64,000 nucleotides of DNA from Fimbriimonas sp. (GTDB lineage Bacteria; Armatimonadota; Fimbriimonadia; Fimbriimonadales; Fimbriimonadaceae): NCBI GenBank assembly GCA_031292555.1, contig JARLGV010000021.1, forward strand, positions 62,001 through 126,000. The letters run 5' to 3'. The position numbers and the translations under genes are program-made. Of the stretch, positions 28,596 to 40,636 are shown piece after piece. Each line of letters opens with the position of its first letter. Position 1 is the first letter of the stretch. A model generated the notes under the pieces. The model was not told where the DNA came from. It did not search any database and worked only from the letters and a program-made list of their open reading frames with translations.

Positions 28596-29477
28596 TTAGG
28601 TTCGAACGATCAGAACCGAATACGGTTCAGACACGACTTGATGCAACGACGTGCTGCCAAGCATCATTCGATGAACGAACCCGTGTCCTTGAGCCCCGAT
28701 GATAAGAAGGTCGGCGTTCTCTGCGCGCATCGCATCGCTGATTCCCTCGTGCACATGAGCATTGGCAACTTCTCCCGTACACTCGTATCCGCTTGCCTGA
28801 AGCTTCTCCACAACCGAATCGGTTTTGGAGCAGACTTCGTGCCAGAGTGACTCTTCGATCGTCTCCGCTGCATGGGGCGGCTCACCGGCTTCAACCGCAG
28901 TCCTTCCTCCCATGTGCAGAATTGAAACGACCTTTATCTTTCGGAGTCCATGTGGCTTCATGTCGATCAGCCGGTCGAGAGCGCGATTCGCGTAACTCGA
29001 ATGATCGGTTGCAAAGACGGCAGAAACCTCACCTTCCTGGTCTACATCCCCCTTAGTGATGAGAATGCACTGATGGGCGCCAATCGCCAAACCGCGGCTT
29101 ACGCTTCCCAAAAAGAATGAACCGAGCCTTCCCTTTCGATCGGAGTGAACGGCAATCAACTCGGTTTGCGTCCCTTCCGCATATTGGCAAAGAGCGGCCG
29201 CTGCCTCTCCGGCCAACAGGATCGTTTCGGCTTCCATGCCCCGCTCGCAAGCGTACTGGCGGGCGCCTTCCAGAGCGTTCTCTCCGGTGACGTTTGACAT
29301 CTGCACAAATTCGGCTCGGTAGGCTGCCTCGGCGGCGCTCCCATATACCGACATCGGAATCTTAACTTCGACGCTGTGAGCGAGCATGTAGTGCGGCTCG
29401 GGAAATCCGAGTCTCGAAGCCATGTTCAAGCAAGCTCGATAGTGACCGGCAGTATCGACACCAACGACAATCTTCAT
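28596..29477 (-). CDS. Tandem universal stress protein (two UspA domains)
   Basis: From the ATG at 29477, with GAGGAG seven bases upstream, the protein has 293 residues. It carries two UspA domains of about 145 residues each. The second ends with the ATP-binding pattern G-2x-G-9x-G-S (GAQGHGFVHRMMLGSTSLHQVV, split here into GAQGHGF and MLGSTSLHQVV). The first has a weaker version (HSDRKGRLGSFFLGSVSRG). Double-domain Usps such as mycobacterial Rv2623 bind ATP and slow growth during hypoxia or dormancy. The upstream region carries the motif at 29551-29561. Its neighbours are HTH-PAS regulators, a CBS protein and an Hsp20. Confidence 0.9.
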   Translation of the reverse strand: MKIVVGVDTAGHYRACLNMASRLGFPEPHYMLAHSVEVKIPMSVYGSAAEAAYRAEFVQMSNVTGENALEGARQYACERGMEAETILLAGEAAAALCQYAEGTQTELIAVHSDRKGRLGSFFLGSVSRGLAIGAHQCILITKGDVDQEGEVSAVFATDHSSYANRALDRLIDMKPHGLRKIKVVSILHMGGRTAVEAGEPPHAAETIEESLWHEVCSKTDSVVEKLQASGYECTGEVANAHVHEGISDAMRAENADLLIIGAQGHGFVHRMMLGSTSLHQVVSEPYSVLIVRT

Positions 29478-29550
29478 GGTTACTCCTCGCCGAATGCACC
29501 ACGATTCGGCAGGCTCTGCTAGATTGTGCCTGGAGCCACTTAGGTCTGGT

Positions 29551-29562
29551 AGTCGGGACTTT
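29551..29562. promoter_or_regulatory. Candidate regulator site AGTCGGGACTTT upstream of the stress protein gene
   Basis: AGTCGGGACTT also occurs at 32534-32544, ahead of the candidate small RNA. GGGACTTT resembles one half of the mycobacterial DosR box as I remember it (TTSGGGACTWWAGTCCSMAA). The second half here is poor. It sits about 75 bases before the stress protein's ATG. This is a candidate site by similarity and repetition only. Confidence 0.4.
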
Positions 29563-29697
29563 ACCGTCATCGGAACGGTGTCATAGGAACGAAGGACGCC
29601 TCGAGACCCACCTCAACCACTAGGTGTCAACGTTATCACATATGAAATCGCGCCAATGAGTGTTGCCATTCGCGTCGGAGATCCAGGCGGAGTCAGC

Positions 29698-30333
29698 CTA
29701 GTGGCCCTTTGGCTGAAGCGCAGCTTTGGGACTTCGACCAGCAATCCAACCGGTTCGTTCAGTACAGACAACCATGACATCGTCGTCTGCGGTTGTGGCG
29801 GTAAGCGCAATCGCCATCTCAATCTCCGAACCGTCCTGCCGAACTCCGAATATGGGCGGATGATAACCCATCTCTCGCTTCCGGAGACTGCCGAGAAAGG
29901 CCAAGCGATACGCCACATGTACGTCGCGCAGAGTCTCCGGTACGAGGTCTTCCACGGTTAGGGAGCGCAGTTCCTCACGGGAATAGCCAAACAAGGCACA
30001 TGCCAATTGATTGAACTCGCGAATAGCGCCAGTTCGACCATCAATGATCAGGACCGCTTGCGGGATTGCGTCCATCAGGGCATGAAGCCGCGCAGCGAGC
30101 GATGTATTCAGGCGCTGTGCCCGCATTTTCAGGGCACGCTCATAGTGGCGTCCGGCGTCATCGGTTTCGACGGCAGCACGAGTCTCGATTCTCTTTAGCG
30201 CCCGAGTAAGGGCATGCATGCTGATGCGTAGACGCACGCAAATCTCATGATCGGCGAAACCTTCGCTCATGAGGTGAAGCACGTCTTGGTCGGTGGACGA
30301 CAATTCTTTCATGAGCAGAGAAATCCCACCCAT
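29698..30333 (-). CDS. HTH-PAS protein, divergent paralogue
   Basis: From the ATG at 30333 (alternative 30312) the protein has 211 residues. The N-terminal ~60 residues are a LuxR-like helix-turn-helix in degenerate form (STDQDVLHLMSEGFADHEI, VRLRISMHALTRALKRIE). A linker helix follows, then a PAS domain (LMDAIPQAVLIIDGRTGAI, EFNQLACALFGYSREEL, FGVRQDGSEIEMAIAL). It is related to the two plus-strand genes that follow but has lost the SEATVGTYWGR recognition helix, so its DNA target or DNA binding may differ. It is transcribed divergently from the second paralogue. Confidence 0.78.
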   Translation of the reverse strand: MGGISLLMKELSSTDQDVLHLMSEGFADHEICVRLRISMHALTRALKRIETRAAVETDDAGRHYERALKMRAQRLNTSLAARLHALMDAIPQAVLIIDGRTGAIREFNQLACALFGYSREELRSLTVEDLVPETLRDVHVAYRLAFLGSLRKREMGYHPPIFGVRQDGSEIEMAIALTATTADDDVMVVCTERTGWIAGRSPKAALQPKGH

Positions 30334-30427
30334 CGCAGTACGAGGATTTCTTTGGAAACATTCTCGTTTGTATGAATGATCCTGTATTATATAGGAGTCC
30401 GCTATAAAGGCAACCCTCCGGCCACTA
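30334..30427. promoter_or_regulatory. Divergent promoter region between HTH-PAS genes
   Basis: The 94 bases hold an AT-rich core, TATTATATA near 30383-30391, that reads as a -10-like TATAAT on the minus strand and TATTAT on the plus strand. Both HTH-PAS genes could start from overlapping promoters here, which would allow mutual or self control. No -35 element is convincing. Confidence 0.4.
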
Positions 30428-31087
30428 ATGCAGGAAGAACGACCAGATCCCCGATTGTCCCCTCGTGAGCGACAGCTCATTCAATATGCCTCGCAAGGCT
30501 TCACAGACACTGCGATCGCACTTCGTCTTGGGATCAGCGAGGCCACTGTTGGAACTTATTGGGGGAGGGTGCGAATCAAATACGGTCCTTATAGCCGGAC
30601 GGAACTAGTCGCGATTATGATGCGTGCGGAGCGAGAGGCGGCTGTCGAAACTCTCAGACGAGAAAATGAACTGCTTATCCGTGAACTGCAGCTCAAGGTG
30701 GCTTCGGGATCGTCGACGATGTACCGAGAATTACTTGAGCATGCACCGGACGCCATGATCCTTGTACGTGAGTCCGGCGAGATTGAGCACGCCAACATCG
30801 CCGCCCTCGAGCTATTTGGATTCGGCCTCGATGAGCTGATTGGCAAAGACATCATGGTTCTTGTGCCCCAAAGGTTCCGGGAACAGCATGCCGTTCACAG
30901 ACAAGACTATGTCAATGAACCTCAACGCCGACAGATGGGTGGGCATCTAGAAACGCCTGCCTGTCACAAGAGCGGAGGCGAGTTTTTGATTCGTGCCGCG
31001 TTGTCAGCAATCACGACACCTACCGGTTTGTTGATTACATGTGCGATTCGCCCGGTAGAACCGCCTGAATTGACGGCAGTACCTTGA
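30428..31087 (+). CDS. HTH-PAS regulator (N-terminal LuxR-type HTH, C-terminal PAS)
   Basis: This 219-residue protein starts with a GerE/LuxR-type helix-turn-helix (LSPRERQLIQYASQGF, then GISEATVGTYWGRVRIKYG, SRTELVAIMMRA). A coiled-coil linker rich in Glu/Arg (AEREAAVETLRREN) leads to a PAS domain at about residues 100-205 (LLEHAPDAMILVRESGEI, FGFGLDELIGKDIMVLVP). The order is reversed relative to most LuxR proteins, where sensing precedes DNA binding. It lacks receiver and kinase domains, so it is a one-component regulator. It is about 60% identical by eye to the next gene. Likely targets are the stress genes around it (inference). Confidence 0.85.
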   Translation: MQEERPDPRLSPRERQLIQYASQGFTDTAIALRLGISEATVGTYWGRVRIKYGPYSRTELVAIMMRAEREAAVETLRRENELLIRELQLKVASGSSTMYRELLEHAPDAMILVRESGEIEHANIAALELFGFGLDELIGKDIMVLVPQRFREQHAVHRQDYVNEPQRRQMGGHLETPACHKSGGEFLIRAALSAITTPTGLLITCAIRPVEPPELTAVP

Positions 31088-31307: not shown

Positions 31308-31958
31308 ATGTACTCAGAACGTCCAGCGCCACGACTCTCTCCCAGGGAACAGCAATTGCTCAAGCTAGCTGCTGAAGGCTTGACCGACATGGCGATCGCC
31401 AACCGTCTCGGAATCAGCGAGGCGACCGTAGGCACATACTGGGGCCGGGTTAGGATAAAGTTTGGACCATTCAGCCGTACCGAACTCGTCGCGATTATGC
31501 TCCGAGCGGAACAAGAGGCAGCAGTTGTCGAGCTTCGTAAGGCGAATGCCGACCTTCTCAGCGAAATGAAGGCTCAGGGAGTGTCCGGCAACACATTTTC
31601 GTTTCGCGATCTCTTGGAGAATGCGCCCGACGCAATCTTCCTAATCTCCCAGCAGGGCATCATTGAATATGCGAATCGAGCGGCAGAAGAGATGTTCGAT
31701 TACCCTTCCGGCTCGCTTAGCGGCGTCGACCACCTTGAGCTGATACCAGAGCGATACCGAGGAGTGCATGTGGAACTGACGCGTGCGTTTTTCCACGAGC
31801 CGGATCGCAGGCCGATGGGCGACCACCTAGATACCTATGCCTGCCGCAAAGATGGATCCGAATTCCTGATTCGCGCTTCCCTTTCCCCGCTGAACTCGGA
31901 CGCCGAAAGCTTGGCGATCTGTGCCGTTCGAGCCGCCCCCGACCTATCCCAGGTATAG
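31308..31958 (+). CDS. HTH-PAS regulator, second plus-strand paralogue
   Basis: This 216-residue protein has the same layout as the previous gene: LuxR-type HTH (LSPREQQLLKLAAEGL, GISEATVGTYWGRVRIKFG, SRTELVAIMLRAEQEAA), linker helix, and PAS domain (LLENAPDAIFLISQQGII, YANRAAEEMFDYPSGSL, CRKDGSEFLIRASLSP). No heme- or flavin-binding residue can be assigned by eye. It lies 220 bases after its paralogue and its last 15 bases overlap the tail of the CBS gene on the other strand. A TAGTTT sequence nine bases before the ATG could be a -10 box. Confidence 0.85.
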   Translation: MYSERPAPRLSPREQQLLKLAAEGLTDMAIANRLGISEATVGTYWGRVRIKFGPFSRTELVAIMLRAEQEAAVVELRKANADLLSEMKAQGVSGNTFSFRDLLENAPDAIFLISQQGIIEYANRAAEEMFDYPSGSLSGVDHLELIPERYRGVHVELTRAFFHEPDRRPMGDHLDTYACRKDGSEFLIRASLSPLNSDAESLAICAVRAAPDLSQV

Positions 31959-32411
31959 GCCAGGCAGGGTTGCCGCCGAAGCAGTCGTCAAATGGCTCGC
32001 CTGTTCGGCATGACGGTGCAGCATTTCTGCGATGGCATCCGGATTCACCCGGCCAGCTATATCCGACAGGCCCACAATTCCAATCAACTTCTTCTCGCCT
32101 TCAGTGACGAGAATACGACGGATGTTATGTTGTCGCATCAAAACTAGAGCATCTTCCGGTTGGTAGTCGCCGTTGAGGCAAATAGCCGGCCGAGACATGA
32201 TCGCTGATACGAGCGTTGTATCCATCGGAAGACCTCGCCCCATGGCACGCGCGGCCAAATCACGACCTGTTATGACACCCAAAATCCGGTCCCGGTCGAT
32301 GACAGGCAGAAAACTGTAGCTGAATCTGTCCATCACTCCGGCGGCATGGCGAACGGACGCCGTTGCCGAGACCGACACGACGGGGTGGCTCATAATCTCT
32401 CTCAGCTTCAT
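31944..32411 (-). CDS. CBS-domain-pair protein
   Basis: The 155-residue protein is a single Bateman module of two CBS domains: MSHPVVSVSATASVRHAAGVM to GVITGRDLAARA, then IMSRPAICLNGDYQPEDALVLM (both spans abbreviated by ends) to GIVGLSDIAGRV. Such stand-alone pairs bind adenosine nucleotides or related ligands and respond to energy state. The mycobacterial example Rv2626c (Hrp1) is strongly hypoxia-induced. A good promoter (TTGACA, 18 bases, TAAGAG) ends seven bases before the ATG, so the mRNA should be leaderless. Its 3' end overlaps the HTH-PAS gene tail to tail. Confidence 0.9.
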   Translation of the reverse strand: MKLREIMSHPVVSVSATASVRHAAGVMDRFSYSFLPVIDRDRILGVITGRDLAARAMGRGLPMDTTLVSAIMSRPAICLNGDYQPEDALVLMRQHNIRRILVTEGEKKLIGIVGLSDIAGRVNPDAIAEMLHRHAEQASHLTTASAATLPGLYLG

Positions 32412-32418
32412 GGAGTGC

Positions 32419-32448
32419 CTCTTATCTCAGGTTCAAGATTCTTGTCAA
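32419..32448 (-). promoter_or_regulatory. Promoter of the CBS gene
   Basis: On the minus strand, TTGACA (32448-32443), an 18-base spacer, and TAAGAG (32424-32419). Transcription would begin at or next to the ATG at 32411. Confidence 0.6.
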
Positions 32449-32532
32449 CCCCCATAGTAAGTCCGAATCTGCTGTTCACCAAGGAATTCTTTCCGCGTCA
32501 TACCTTTCCTGTCATTTCTTTCCATGACGGCT

Positions 32533-32544
32533 AAGTCGGGACTT
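32533..32544. promoter_or_regulatory. Candidate regulator site AAGTCGGGACTT (inverted repeat)
   Basis: AAGTC-GG-GACTT is a perfect inverted repeat and contains the 11-mer found upstream of the universal stress protein gene. GGGACTT again resembles a DosR/NarL-type half-site. It precedes the candidate small RNA region by about 270 bases from the terminator. Confidence 0.4.
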
Positions 32545-32806
32545 GTTTCGTATTCGTGGGAGCTTTACCGTGTATCTCGTAGCAACTGGCAATGGTTGTA
32601 GCAAAGCACCGAGCATCGGCTCTTGCGGATCGCGTCAAATCACGAGTTTTCGCGAATTTGGTCGATGCCCGTTACGGCTTTTCGAGATCTTTTCGGTTTT
32701 GTTGGCCTTGGCGGCGTTTTGCCTGGAACCATGCCCAAGAGTTGCCGGACTGGCATAGAGTCTTTATTGGTTTTCGTAAATCTCGCAGAATTGCGAAGAT
32801 CCATAG

Positions 32807-32855
32807 GAGCGCTTCGTCATCTGCGAATTGAAAGGGCGGACGAAGCGCTCTTTTT
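32807..32855 (+). terminator. Strong rho-independent terminator without an obvious gene
   Basis: A perfect 12-pair stem (32807-32818 with 32839-32850, GAGCGCTTCGTC and its complement) and a 20-base loop are followed at once by TTTTT. On the plus strand the nearest upstream coding gene ends 850 bases earlier with an antisense gene in between, so it more likely ends a non-coding transcript. Confidence 0.65.
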
Positions 32856-33011
32856 CCTGAAGTTCTTTGGTGTTAAGGGTTGGCGATGCAGCCAAGCCCG
32901 TAACATGGTTCTCACTTTGCTTGGTTGGGACCCGGAATTGGTTGCTCGGACCACGAATCAACCTAGTTTGCACATATTGTCATCGGTTTGAATGACATCC
33001 TAAGCAACGAC

Positions 33012-33040
33012 TTGCCGGTCACGAGGCCACGGCGTACTAT
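33012..33040 (+). promoter_or_regulatory. Promoter of the Hsp20 gene
   Basis: TTGCCG (33012-33017), a 17-base spacer, and TACTAT (33035-33040). This places the transcription start near 33047 and leaves a ~22-base leader carrying GGAGA before the ATG at 33069. It excludes the longer upstream start at 32988. A GGGAC sequence lies about 85 bases upstream at 32927-32931. Confidence 0.6.
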
Positions 33041-33068
33041 CTTTCCTCAGAAACCCCATAAACGGAGA

Positions 33069-33488
33069 ATGCGATTGACAAGAATGTCCCCCAACCCAGT
33101 TGTTTCGTGTCACCCCTTTGAGAAGTTGATGGCCGATATATTTAGCGCACCTTCCGACGAGCACTTGACAAAGGTCGACGTCAAGGAGAATCGGCATGCC
33201 CTCGTTTTTGTCGCTGAATTGCCCGGTATCAATGACAAAGATGTCGCGGTGGAACTAGATGGACGAACGCTTACGATCTGCGGCCATCGTCAACCCGAGG
33301 AAGATGCAGACGTGGACAGCTATGTTCACATCGAGCGAGACAGCAGGGATATCCGTCGATCGTTTATTGTTGACTTCCCCGTTAAGCCCGAATGCATCCA
33401 AGCCCAACTCGCCGACGGATTGCTGACCATTGTCGTACCCAAACCAGTGGCGCATATATGTCGCCAGATTCCCATTCAGATCCTTTAG
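33069..33488 (+). CDS. Small heat-shock protein (Hsp20/alpha-crystallin)
   Basis: The 139-residue protein carries an alpha-crystallin domain at about residues 32-125. It shows KVDVKENRHALVFVAELPG, the strand VAVELDGRTLTICGHR, a segment resembling the usual F-R-R-x-F motif (RDIRRSFIVDFPV), and ADGLLTIVVPK, which corresponds to the conserved A-x-x-x-n-GvL-x-v box. The C-terminus ends IPIQIL, an I-x-I/L-type tail used in oligomer assembly. It is an ATP-independent holdase. The start follows the promoter at 33012 and a GGAG immediately before the ATG. It belongs to the stress island with USP and CBS genes, as hspX does in mycobacteria. Confidence 0.9.
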   Translation: MRLTRMSPNPVVSCHPFEKLMADIFSAPSDEHLTKVDVKENRHALVFVAELPGINDKDVAVELDGRTLTICGHRQPEEDADVDSYVHIERDSRDIRRSFIVDFPVKPECIQAQLADGLLTIVVPKPVAHICRQIPIQIL

Positions 33489-39388: not shown

Positions 39389-40198
39389 ATGAGAAAAGCC
39401 TTTACCCTCATCGAACTTCTTGTTGTAATCGCCATCATAGCAATCTTGGCCTCTATTCTCTTTCCGGTTTTTGCTCAGGCAAAGGCCGCCGCTAAGAAGA
39501 CACAGGCTCTTAGCAATGTTAAGCAACTCAGCACTGCGATGGTTATGTACATCGGGGACTACGACGGAACTTACTATGAGGCGGCTCAAGGACTGTCGAC
39601 TGGAACGCAGACTGCAAATTCCCTGATTTGGAACGGTTGGCTCCAACCGTACATCAAGAGCACAGCACTTGCGCTCGATCCGGCCAACACTTACCCAGTT
39701 CAGACGTTCGCGGGTTCGAATTATACGGGGATGTACTACACGCCCGTCGACTACAAGCAACTTTCCATCGGATATAACGCCTACTTCACGGGCGAGAACA
39801 CCTGGGGCTGCCTCGGCAACTTCACCGGAAGCGGCTCATGCTACACATTCTTCTCCGAGGGCCAGTTTGAGTTTCCTTCTCAGCAGTTGCTCTTCGCGAA
39901 CAGCACGTACGGCGCTCCTTCTTCGCTGGCCAATGGATTCTGGGTGTGGGCTTATCACAATATCAACACGCCGAACGGTATCTCCGATATTCATAGCGGA
40001 TTCACCGTCGTTAGCTTCCAGGACAGCCATGCCAAAGCGACCAAGTCGACAACGTTGCTCGTTAGCGATCAGGTCGCCGAGATCGATCCGAACGCTTCTG
40101 GCCAGTGCGTGAACTACGACGCAGCCAACATAATCTGGGATCCGACGGCTCCGATTCCTTCGAATCAGCCGTTGTGCGAAGGCCACGGCATCCGCTAA
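39389..40198 (+). CDS. Prepilin-like protein with N-terminal cleavage/methylation motif
   Basis: The 269-residue protein starts [18 protein letters not shown], a class III (type IV pilin/type II secretion pseudopilin) signal. Cleavage should occur before Phe5 of FTLIELL with Glu at +5. The hydrophobic helix continues to a conserved [15 protein letters not shown] segment typical of Armatimonadota and Planctomycetes pseudopilin families. The C-terminal part carries [15 protein letters not shown], a variant of the H-x9-D-G motif with Ser for Gly. It is secreted and probably assembled or surface-exposed. The start at 39389 is set by the signal motif. A strong terminator follows. Confidence 0.9.
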
Positions 40199-40219: not shown

Positions 40220-40252
40220 AAGGACGCCCCGGACAATGTCCGGGGCGTCCTT
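40220..40252 (+). terminator. Strong terminator after the prepilin gene
   Basis: A perfect 15-pair GC-rich stem (40220-40234 with 40238-40252) closes on an AAT loop, then CTGTTTCTT. It is 21 bases after the prepilin stop. Confidence 0.8.
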
Positions 40253-40566
40253 CTGTTTCTTCGCTCAGCACTTGGCGCGAGAAGAGGCCACTCGCTATGA
40301 CCCAATGTCCCCAGTTGCACGCCCCCAAATCAAAGGCAGAAGGAAGCTTGCGGAGCATCCCGCGCTGATGCACCAACGCTTGCACTCTCTACGTTGCGGG
40401 CCTACTTGGATTCGAGTGGCCGAGTCCGATCGGCTGGCAACAATCGCCAAGGTCGAAGGTAGATCGGTTCGCCTCTCACTAACCGCAGTCGGCCCGGCGT
40501 AGGACTTATGCGGACCATAACGCGTCCCTGCCGTTATGGGCGGAAGCTCAGTGCTCCAGAAAGCAA
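40253..40566. other. Intergenic region with one further hairpin
   Basis: No gene is supported. CCATAACG (40515-40522) pairs with CGTTATGG (40532-40539) around a nine-base loop. The rest shows nothing recognisable. Confidence 0.35.
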
Positions 40567-40636
40567 CAGGCCCCGAAGTGAATAAGCACTTCGGGGCCTG
40601 ATTCTGGTCAGCTTACGGAACAACCGTAAGCTGACC
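40567..40636 (-). terminator. Double hairpin terminator of the giant Ig-repeat gene
   Basis: On the minus strand two perfect stems follow the stop codon. The first has 13 pairs (40606-40618 with 40624-40636) and a five-base loop. The second has 14 pairs (40567-40580 with 40587-40600) and a six-base loop, followed by TTGCTTT. Confidence 0.75.

Follow-up and report, generated by a model that had tools for sequence, protein, structure and literature searches.

A candidate gene for a structured small RNA, predicted to be regulated together with hsp20, in an HTH-PAS regulator island of Fimbriimonas sp.

What ends at the terminator at position 32855? In the stretch of Fimbriimonas sp. DNA that we analysed (64,000 nt of contig JARLGV010000021.1; hereafter the window), a hairpin with a T-run stands on the plus strand of an island of stress genes and HTH-PAS regulators, far from any gene that it could serve. 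Judging from the sequence, we find it fairly probable that 32578-32855 encodes a structured small RNA (sRNA), regulated by an HTH-PAS protein together with hsp20, the small heat-shock protein gene that follows. Two features are central to the argument.

32807..32855, plus strand: intrinsic terminator; stem 32807-32818/32839-32850 with 12 perfect pairs, loop of 20 nt, TTTTT at 32851-32855.
32578..32855, plus strand: predicted structured small RNA of about 278 nt; 5' end predicted to within about 3 nt.

The original prediction had described a perfect stem of 12 pairs followed by TTTTT on the plus strand, and its coordinates proved exact. The fold of 32800-32860 has an energy of -25.7 kcal/mol (z -3.3), equalled by none of 200 shuffles. 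The chance level of terminators was determined on 443,167 bases from this genome (the window and 20 other stretches), with three dinucleotide shuffles as controls. Stems of at least 12 bp followed by a T-run of at least 4 were found five times, versus 0, 0 and 0 in the shuffles; with stems of at least 10 bp the count was 11 versus 0. It follows from this comparison that the genome uses intrinsic terminators, though sparsely, and that the structure at 32807-32855 is among them; chance does not account for it, and it is a genuine intrinsic terminator. A simple terminator scan missed it because the scan accepts only loops of 3-8 and the loop here has 20 nt. With stems of at least 9 pairs the same bases held 14 terminators, 12 of which sit 7-65 nt behind a same-strand open reading frame (ORF); four of these 12 ORFs are only 62-80 amino acids (aa) long and come from a crude ORF caller. 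One of the other two terminators is 2,208 nt from a same-strand ORF and the second is the one at 32855. As had been claimed, 31958 is the end of the nearest same-strand gene, 849 nt away, and the antisense gene in between encodes a CBS-domain protein (31944-32411, minus strand). Given this gap and the intervening antisense gene, the terminator should end something unannotated.

The sequence in front of the terminator is structured beyond chance. The minimum free energy of 32578-32855 is -110.9 kcal/mol (z -4.43), a value that 0 of 200 shuffles equalled, and the RNA body without the terminator still gives z -3.78. None of 133 random 278-nt windows reached z <= -4, the lowest value being -3.69, at 40341. 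Flanking 180-nt windows at 32200-32400 and 32900-33100 had z between -0.5 and 1.6; single 180-nt windows within the predicted RNA reached only -1.4 to -2.5, so the fold signal belongs to the whole transcript. The first stem of the fold begins 4 nt past the predicted start. The span proposed initially, 32449-32855, begins too far upstream: its left part, 32449-32577, consists of the operator and of divergent promoter sequence, and what would be transcribed as the RNA is about 32578-32855.

Elsewhere in the window we saw three perfect hairpins of 13-15 bp without a T-tail (40220-40252, 40567-40600 and 40606-40636), the first of them directly behind a pilin-like gene whose end is at 40198. The random window with the lowest z, at 40341, falls in this three-hairpin stretch (near 40220-40636).

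Three plus-strand ORFs overlap the stretch, at 32592 (79 aa), 32623 (122 aa) and 32543 (71 aa). Their codon log-odds scores are -0.217, -0.089 and -0.154, to be compared with medians of 0.18 for long ORFs and -0.095 for 948 spurious ORFs; thus all three score like spurious ORFs. None had a match in Pfam, nor did the two of them that were put to NCBIfam have one there. The 122-aa ORF had no relative in 113 order-level genomes apart from its own, and the 79-aa ORF, searched in 291 genomes of the phylum, gave matches only at E 1e-3 or worse, with internal stops in most. By eye, no clear ribosome-binding site was seen at any start codon of the predicted transcript. Codon scores, Pfam, NCBIfam and homologue searches therefore bear out the claim that no plausible coding gene precedes the terminator. 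A conserved protein in the 32592-32831 or 32623-32991 frame, named beforehand as what would speak against a regulatory RNA, was searched for and none was found; the predicted transcript is probably non-coding.

The DNA to the left of the predicted start, and that between the terminator and hsp20, carries the following elements.

32511..32528, no strand: operator GTCAT-N8-ATGAC, probably common to the RNA (right) and the CBS gene (left).
32497..32501, no strand: third GTCAT half-site, 14 bp from the operator in the direction of the CBS gene (leftward); the same arrangement occurs at other sites.
32543..32548, plus strand: -35-like TTGTTT within GGACTTG, 15 bp past the operator.
32566..32571, plus strand: -10-like TACCGT, weak, after a 17-bp spacer.
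32477..32482, minus strand: -35-like TTGGTG of the divergent CBS promoter, N17 to TACTAT.
32454..32459, minus strand: -10-like TACTAT of the divergent CBS promoter, N17 from TTGGTG.
32979..32996, no strand: second operator GTCAT-N8-ATGAC, upstream of hsp20.
33012..33040, plus strand: hsp20 promoter TTGCCG-N17-TACTAT, with the layout of the RNA promoter.

The promoters of the RNA and of hsp20 are built alike: a TTG lies 15-16 bp after the operator and a -10 follows at N17. This -10 reads TACCGT in the RNA promoter, TACTAT in the hsp20 promoter and TATCAT in front of hsp20 in the orthologous island of a related genome (G019). With transcription starts placed from the -10, the distance from operator centre to start would be about 58.5 bp for the RNA and 59.5 bp for hsp20. 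The hexamer GACTTG at +12/+13 after the operator is found in 4 of 24 flanks in the source genome (G000) and is the commonest hexamer at those offsets; it contains the TTG of the -35, and the RNA and hsp20 have it in common. A second layout, with a TTG at 29-30 and often an extra ATGAC at 10-11, fits the CBS gene leftward of the 32511 operator and is also seen at sigma, hsp20 and Usp genes elsewhere. With this layout on the left and the GACTTG layout on the right, the 32511 operator probably serves both CBS leftward and the RNA rightward. Among 13 operator sites compared, such a TTG is missing from several flanks, among them the two on either side of the sites G041, G019:C44 and G048a.

The CBS/RNA operator region resembles the operator between a sigma gene and an orphan promoter in G019:C113 (43 nt, 84%, E 1e-7). 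This orphan promoter (L169:7917-8424) has its GACTTG flank opposite the sigma side, 490 nt before the next gene, and is the counterpart of another orphan promoter of this class, found in the source genome (G000:C27:16412-16429), which faces away from a sigma gene; the two align clearly only in the operator/promoter part (71 nt, 72%). The G000:C27 promoter faces a perfect 16-bp hairpin (L099:7092-7130) about 240-280 nt on, and L099:7092-7360, which looks non-coding and has a fold z of -2.86, may represent a further RNA in this regulon.

A repeated regulator-like motif had been mentioned earlier without being spelled out. The repeat that we find is GTCAT-N8-ATGAC, enriched across the genome and at regulator loci; its count in the window is unremarkable by itself (3 matches with at most one mismatch, 2.1 expected). 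In the source genome it occurs at 12 places, versus 4 for a reversed-pattern control; the longer form TGTCAT-N8-ATGACA occurs there at 4 places, versus 0 in the control. Across 81 genomes, 17 have it, with 26 places in all, again versus 0. Many of these 26 perfect palindromes, lying inside unrelated genes, are probably chance occurrences. In the source genome one site (C44) neighbours a second Hsp20 gene and an HTH-PAS gene, another (C27) neighbours an ECF-type sigma factor gene that adjoins a further HTH-PAS gene, and on C1 the neighbours are a nitroreductase about 250 bp downstream and a malic enzyme; other sites, inside or near unrelated genes, may be due to chance. A site in another genus (G041) lies between Hsp20 and HTH-PAS genes, and in G048:C381 an HTH-PAS gene and a short-chain dehydrogenase adjoin a pair of operators (L165:8546 and 8793) spaced by 247 bp.

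The operator evidence that we rely on is a spacer test at 29 loci (104,937 bp) chosen only by protein similarity to the HTH-PAS protein encoded at 31308. Five perfect matches had a spacer of 8, and the 16 other spacers in the range 0-16 together had one; with one mismatch, spacer 8 gave 14 matches and each other spacer 0 to 6. This points to a strong positional link of GTCAT-N8-ATGAC to HTH-PAS genes, from which we infer that HTH-PAS proteins bind it.

Other patterns were tried as regulator motifs. TTGACAAGAATCTTGAAC (32431-32448, minus strand, near the CBS start) looked repeated in relatives and was dropped: a pattern search gave mostly one or two matches per genome, with changes at positions like codon third positions, and it is probably a conserved coding stretch. 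Repeats of GTCGGGACTT and AAGTC-N2-GACTT were not above chance within the window, and CAAGA-N-TCTTG was not clearly above chance. Around the nitroreductase operator (G000:C1:13958-13975) about 58 bp are almost perfectly palindromic, with the operator in the middle, CGACTTG on one flank and CGACTGG on the other. At the HTH-PAS loci of relatives (L161-L179), Hsp20, Usp, PNPOx-like and short-chain-dehydrogenase-like genes recur as neighbours, and some of these loci do not have the exact operator.

The genes of the island, from left to right, are as follows.

28596..29570, minus strand: universal stress protein (Pfam Usp 1.4e-21).
29698..30480, minus strand: HTH-PAS-like regulator (Pfam PAS 8.6e-11, weak GerE, 0.042); real start probably ATG 30312.
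30428..31087, plus strand: HTH-PAS (LuxR/GerE + PAS) regulator, with all four FG214 heme-site positions kept.
31308..31958, plus strand: HTH-PAS regulator, paralogue (Pfam GerE and PAS; PDB 10jx, FG214, E 8e-30).
31944..32411, minus strand: CBS-domain protein of 155 aa, divergent neighbour (Pfam CBS 7.6e-26).
33069..33488, plus strand: Hsp20 small heat-shock protein (Pfam HSP20 1.7e-13).

The best PDB match of the 31308 protein is the FG214 PAS domain (10jx), followed by FixL and NarL. FG214 is a heme-containing HTH-PAS one-component switch of Fimbriimonas ginsengisoli, which dimerizes and binds DNA when its heme is reduced or liganded (PMC13060918). Having a GerE-type HTH and a PAS domain, the HTH-PAS proteins of the island are relatives of FG214. 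In the 10jx alignment, read by eye, the 30428 protein keeps positions H156, H159, M172 and H175, and the 31308 and 29698 proteins have no counterpart of the second heme-site position (H159).

The original prediction had offered a stress-induced regulatory RNA, and this predicted function best fits what was computed directly: the orphan terminator, the hsp20-like promoter layout with its operator family, the strong fold, the lack of coding signal and an Hfq gene in the source genome (G000:C9, E 1.2e-27). In the scheme that we infer, as regards transcription, binding protein, inducing signal and mode of action alike, an FG214-like HTH-PAS dimer activated through heme or redox state would bind the palindrome at 32511-32528 and recruit RNA polymerase to the -35/-10 elements at 32543-32571; the same bound site would probably also drive the divergent CBS gene. 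Transcription would run from about 32578 and halt at the intrinsic terminator at 32855, and the RNA would be produced together with Hsp20, whose similarly built promoter lies about 470 bp downstream. Under redox or oxygen stress the RNA would most likely pair in trans with mRNAs, assisted by Hfq. Since Hfq is present, trans-acting pairing is the default guess, held with less confidence than the RNA gene as such. Our best reading places the RNA in a regulon under heme/redox control by HTH-PAS proteins, along with hsp20 and probably the CBS gene, the nitroreductase and the sigma factor.

Several observations weigh against this interpretation. The -10 of the RNA, TACCGT, matches the consensus at only three of six positions. 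The reverse complement of the predicted RNA also folds well (z -3.2), so the fold alone leaves the strand undecided, and it is the T-tail and the promoter that decide it. A duplex-energy target scan of 11 local start regions gave none that beat the best of 60 own shuffles. The FG214 half-site found in vitro (microarray motif) is GGGGCGGGG (PMC13060918), whereas the regulator-linked palindrome here is GTCAT-N8-ATGAC, a mismatch that speaks against assigning this palindrome to the FG214 class. When 32412-33068 was searched as DNA in the 113 order-level genomes, the source genome apart, the matches were two short ones, in G021 and G044 (26 and 31 nt), and none was long. In G019 (L163) the orthologous island has pectate-lyase-like, phosphoesterase, Usp, three HTH-PAS and Hsp20 genes in the same order, at 34-71% identity, without the CBS gene and the RNA region. 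A DNA search for homologues of the RNA in 41 relatives gave short matches only, those in G017 and G019 being operator matches, and no homologue was found in plasmids and phages. A covariance-model search of Rfam yielded nothing, either at the gathering threshold or at E <= 5 over 32400-33100. With no DNA homologue, and the G019 island lacking it, the RNA appears to be lineage-specific as far as seen. A scan of the genome contigs with the CBS protein gave three distant loci, and no such operator was seen in the 11-12 kb around the CBS homologues of G003, G005 and G008.

Two of these absences speak for the rival view that the 32511 operator regulates the CBS gene only, the rightward promoter being incidental and the terminator and structured stretch a remnant of inserted or decayed sequence: CBS and RNA form an insertion relative to the G019 island, and the stretch is without homologues in the order-level genomes. 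The leftward promoter is moreover a good match (TTGGTG-N17-TACTAT, TTG at +29, extra ATGAC at +10) laid out as at the G017 hsp20 and G062 Usp genes. We still regard a CBS-only operator as unlikely, because the GACTTG at +12/+13 recurs in the other flanks noted above, the TTG is within 1 bp of the hsp20 spacing, the strong fold covers the predicted transcript, and an intact terminator would be unlikely to survive without a transcript. More doubtful is a 5' leader or attenuator of hsp20, with transcription from 32578 running past a conditional terminator into the gene at 33069 and the RNA acting as a sensor. The strand is the same, the leader would be structured and the terminator stands 214 nt before the ORF, but hsp20 has an operator and promoter of its own downstream of the terminator, pairing of either terminator arm with upstream RNA reaches at best -10.6 or -11.7 kcal/mol versus -22.0 kcal/mol for the terminator, and Rfam has no match.

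Very little credence goes to a small-protein gene co-regulated with hsp20 (the 79-aa ORF, 32592-32831). Its ATG lies 14 nt past the predicted start and its product would be basic and contain Trp; yet its stop codon falls in the terminator loop, which adds to the codon score in the spurious range, the unseen ribosome-binding site, the poor and interrupted matches in the phylum and the lack of Pfam or NCBIfam families. It is just as improbable that read-through from the HTH-PAS gene at 31308-31958 makes a long 3' untranslated region, antisense to CBS and ended by the 32855 terminator. Such a transcript would couple expression of the regulator and of CBS, the strand is the same, and no terminator of the scanned kind directly follows 31958; the 849 nt to be crossed are, however, far beyond the 7-65 nt that separate 12 of the 14 terminators from their ORFs, and the regulon promoter in between would be left unexplained. 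An sRNA gene sharing its regulation with hsp20 thus remains the reading that we prefer.

We found no paper on small RNA in Fimbriimonas, nor on transcriptomes or sRNA in Armatimonadota; the locus thus offers a concrete and testable candidate for an sRNA gene in a lineage for which no such papers were found. It also suggests which operator, and which targets (hsp20, CBS, nitroreductase, sigma factor and RNA), FG214-type heme switches may use natively. The in vivo role of FG214 awaits validation according to its authors (PMC13060918). That role of a protein of solved structure would become directly testable by binding and expression assays.

How does the candidate compare with known systems? To FG214 the island is tied by its HTH-PAS proteins, relatives that include one, the 30428 protein, with the heme-site residues kept. 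Hfq-dependent trans-acting sRNAs have a regulated promoter of their own, a structured body and an intrinsic terminator with a U-tail; the predicted RNA resembles them in its predicted regulated promoter, structured body, terminator with U-tail and the hfq gene in the genome, and differs in being, at about 278 nt, long for the class. Among the members of the DosR regulon are Hsp20, Usp, CBS and nitroreductase proteins, and the DosR box is GGGACT-N2-AGTCCC; an operator of this type, in the form just given, was looked for and was not above chance within the window. DrrS (MTS1338) is a DosR-activated sRNA of Mycobacterium tuberculosis, an intergenic, structured, stress-regulated RNA with a regulator-switched promoter (PMC5360333), properties that are predicted for the RNA here. 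The candidate differs in having a strong terminator and a regulator of another class, and homology to DrrS is not claimed; by analogy DrrS would be its nearest functional parallel. Tentatively, and with more doubt than belief, we suggest that the predicted RNA belongs to a group of non-coding RNAs transcribed divergently from GTCAT-N8-ATGAC operators, these being the native operators of heme-sensing HTH-PAS switches. Together with the orphan promoters of G000:C27 and G019:C113 it could then make up the RNA branch of a dormancy regulon that responds to gas or redox state, a functional parallel to DosR/DrrS under an unrelated one-component regulator.
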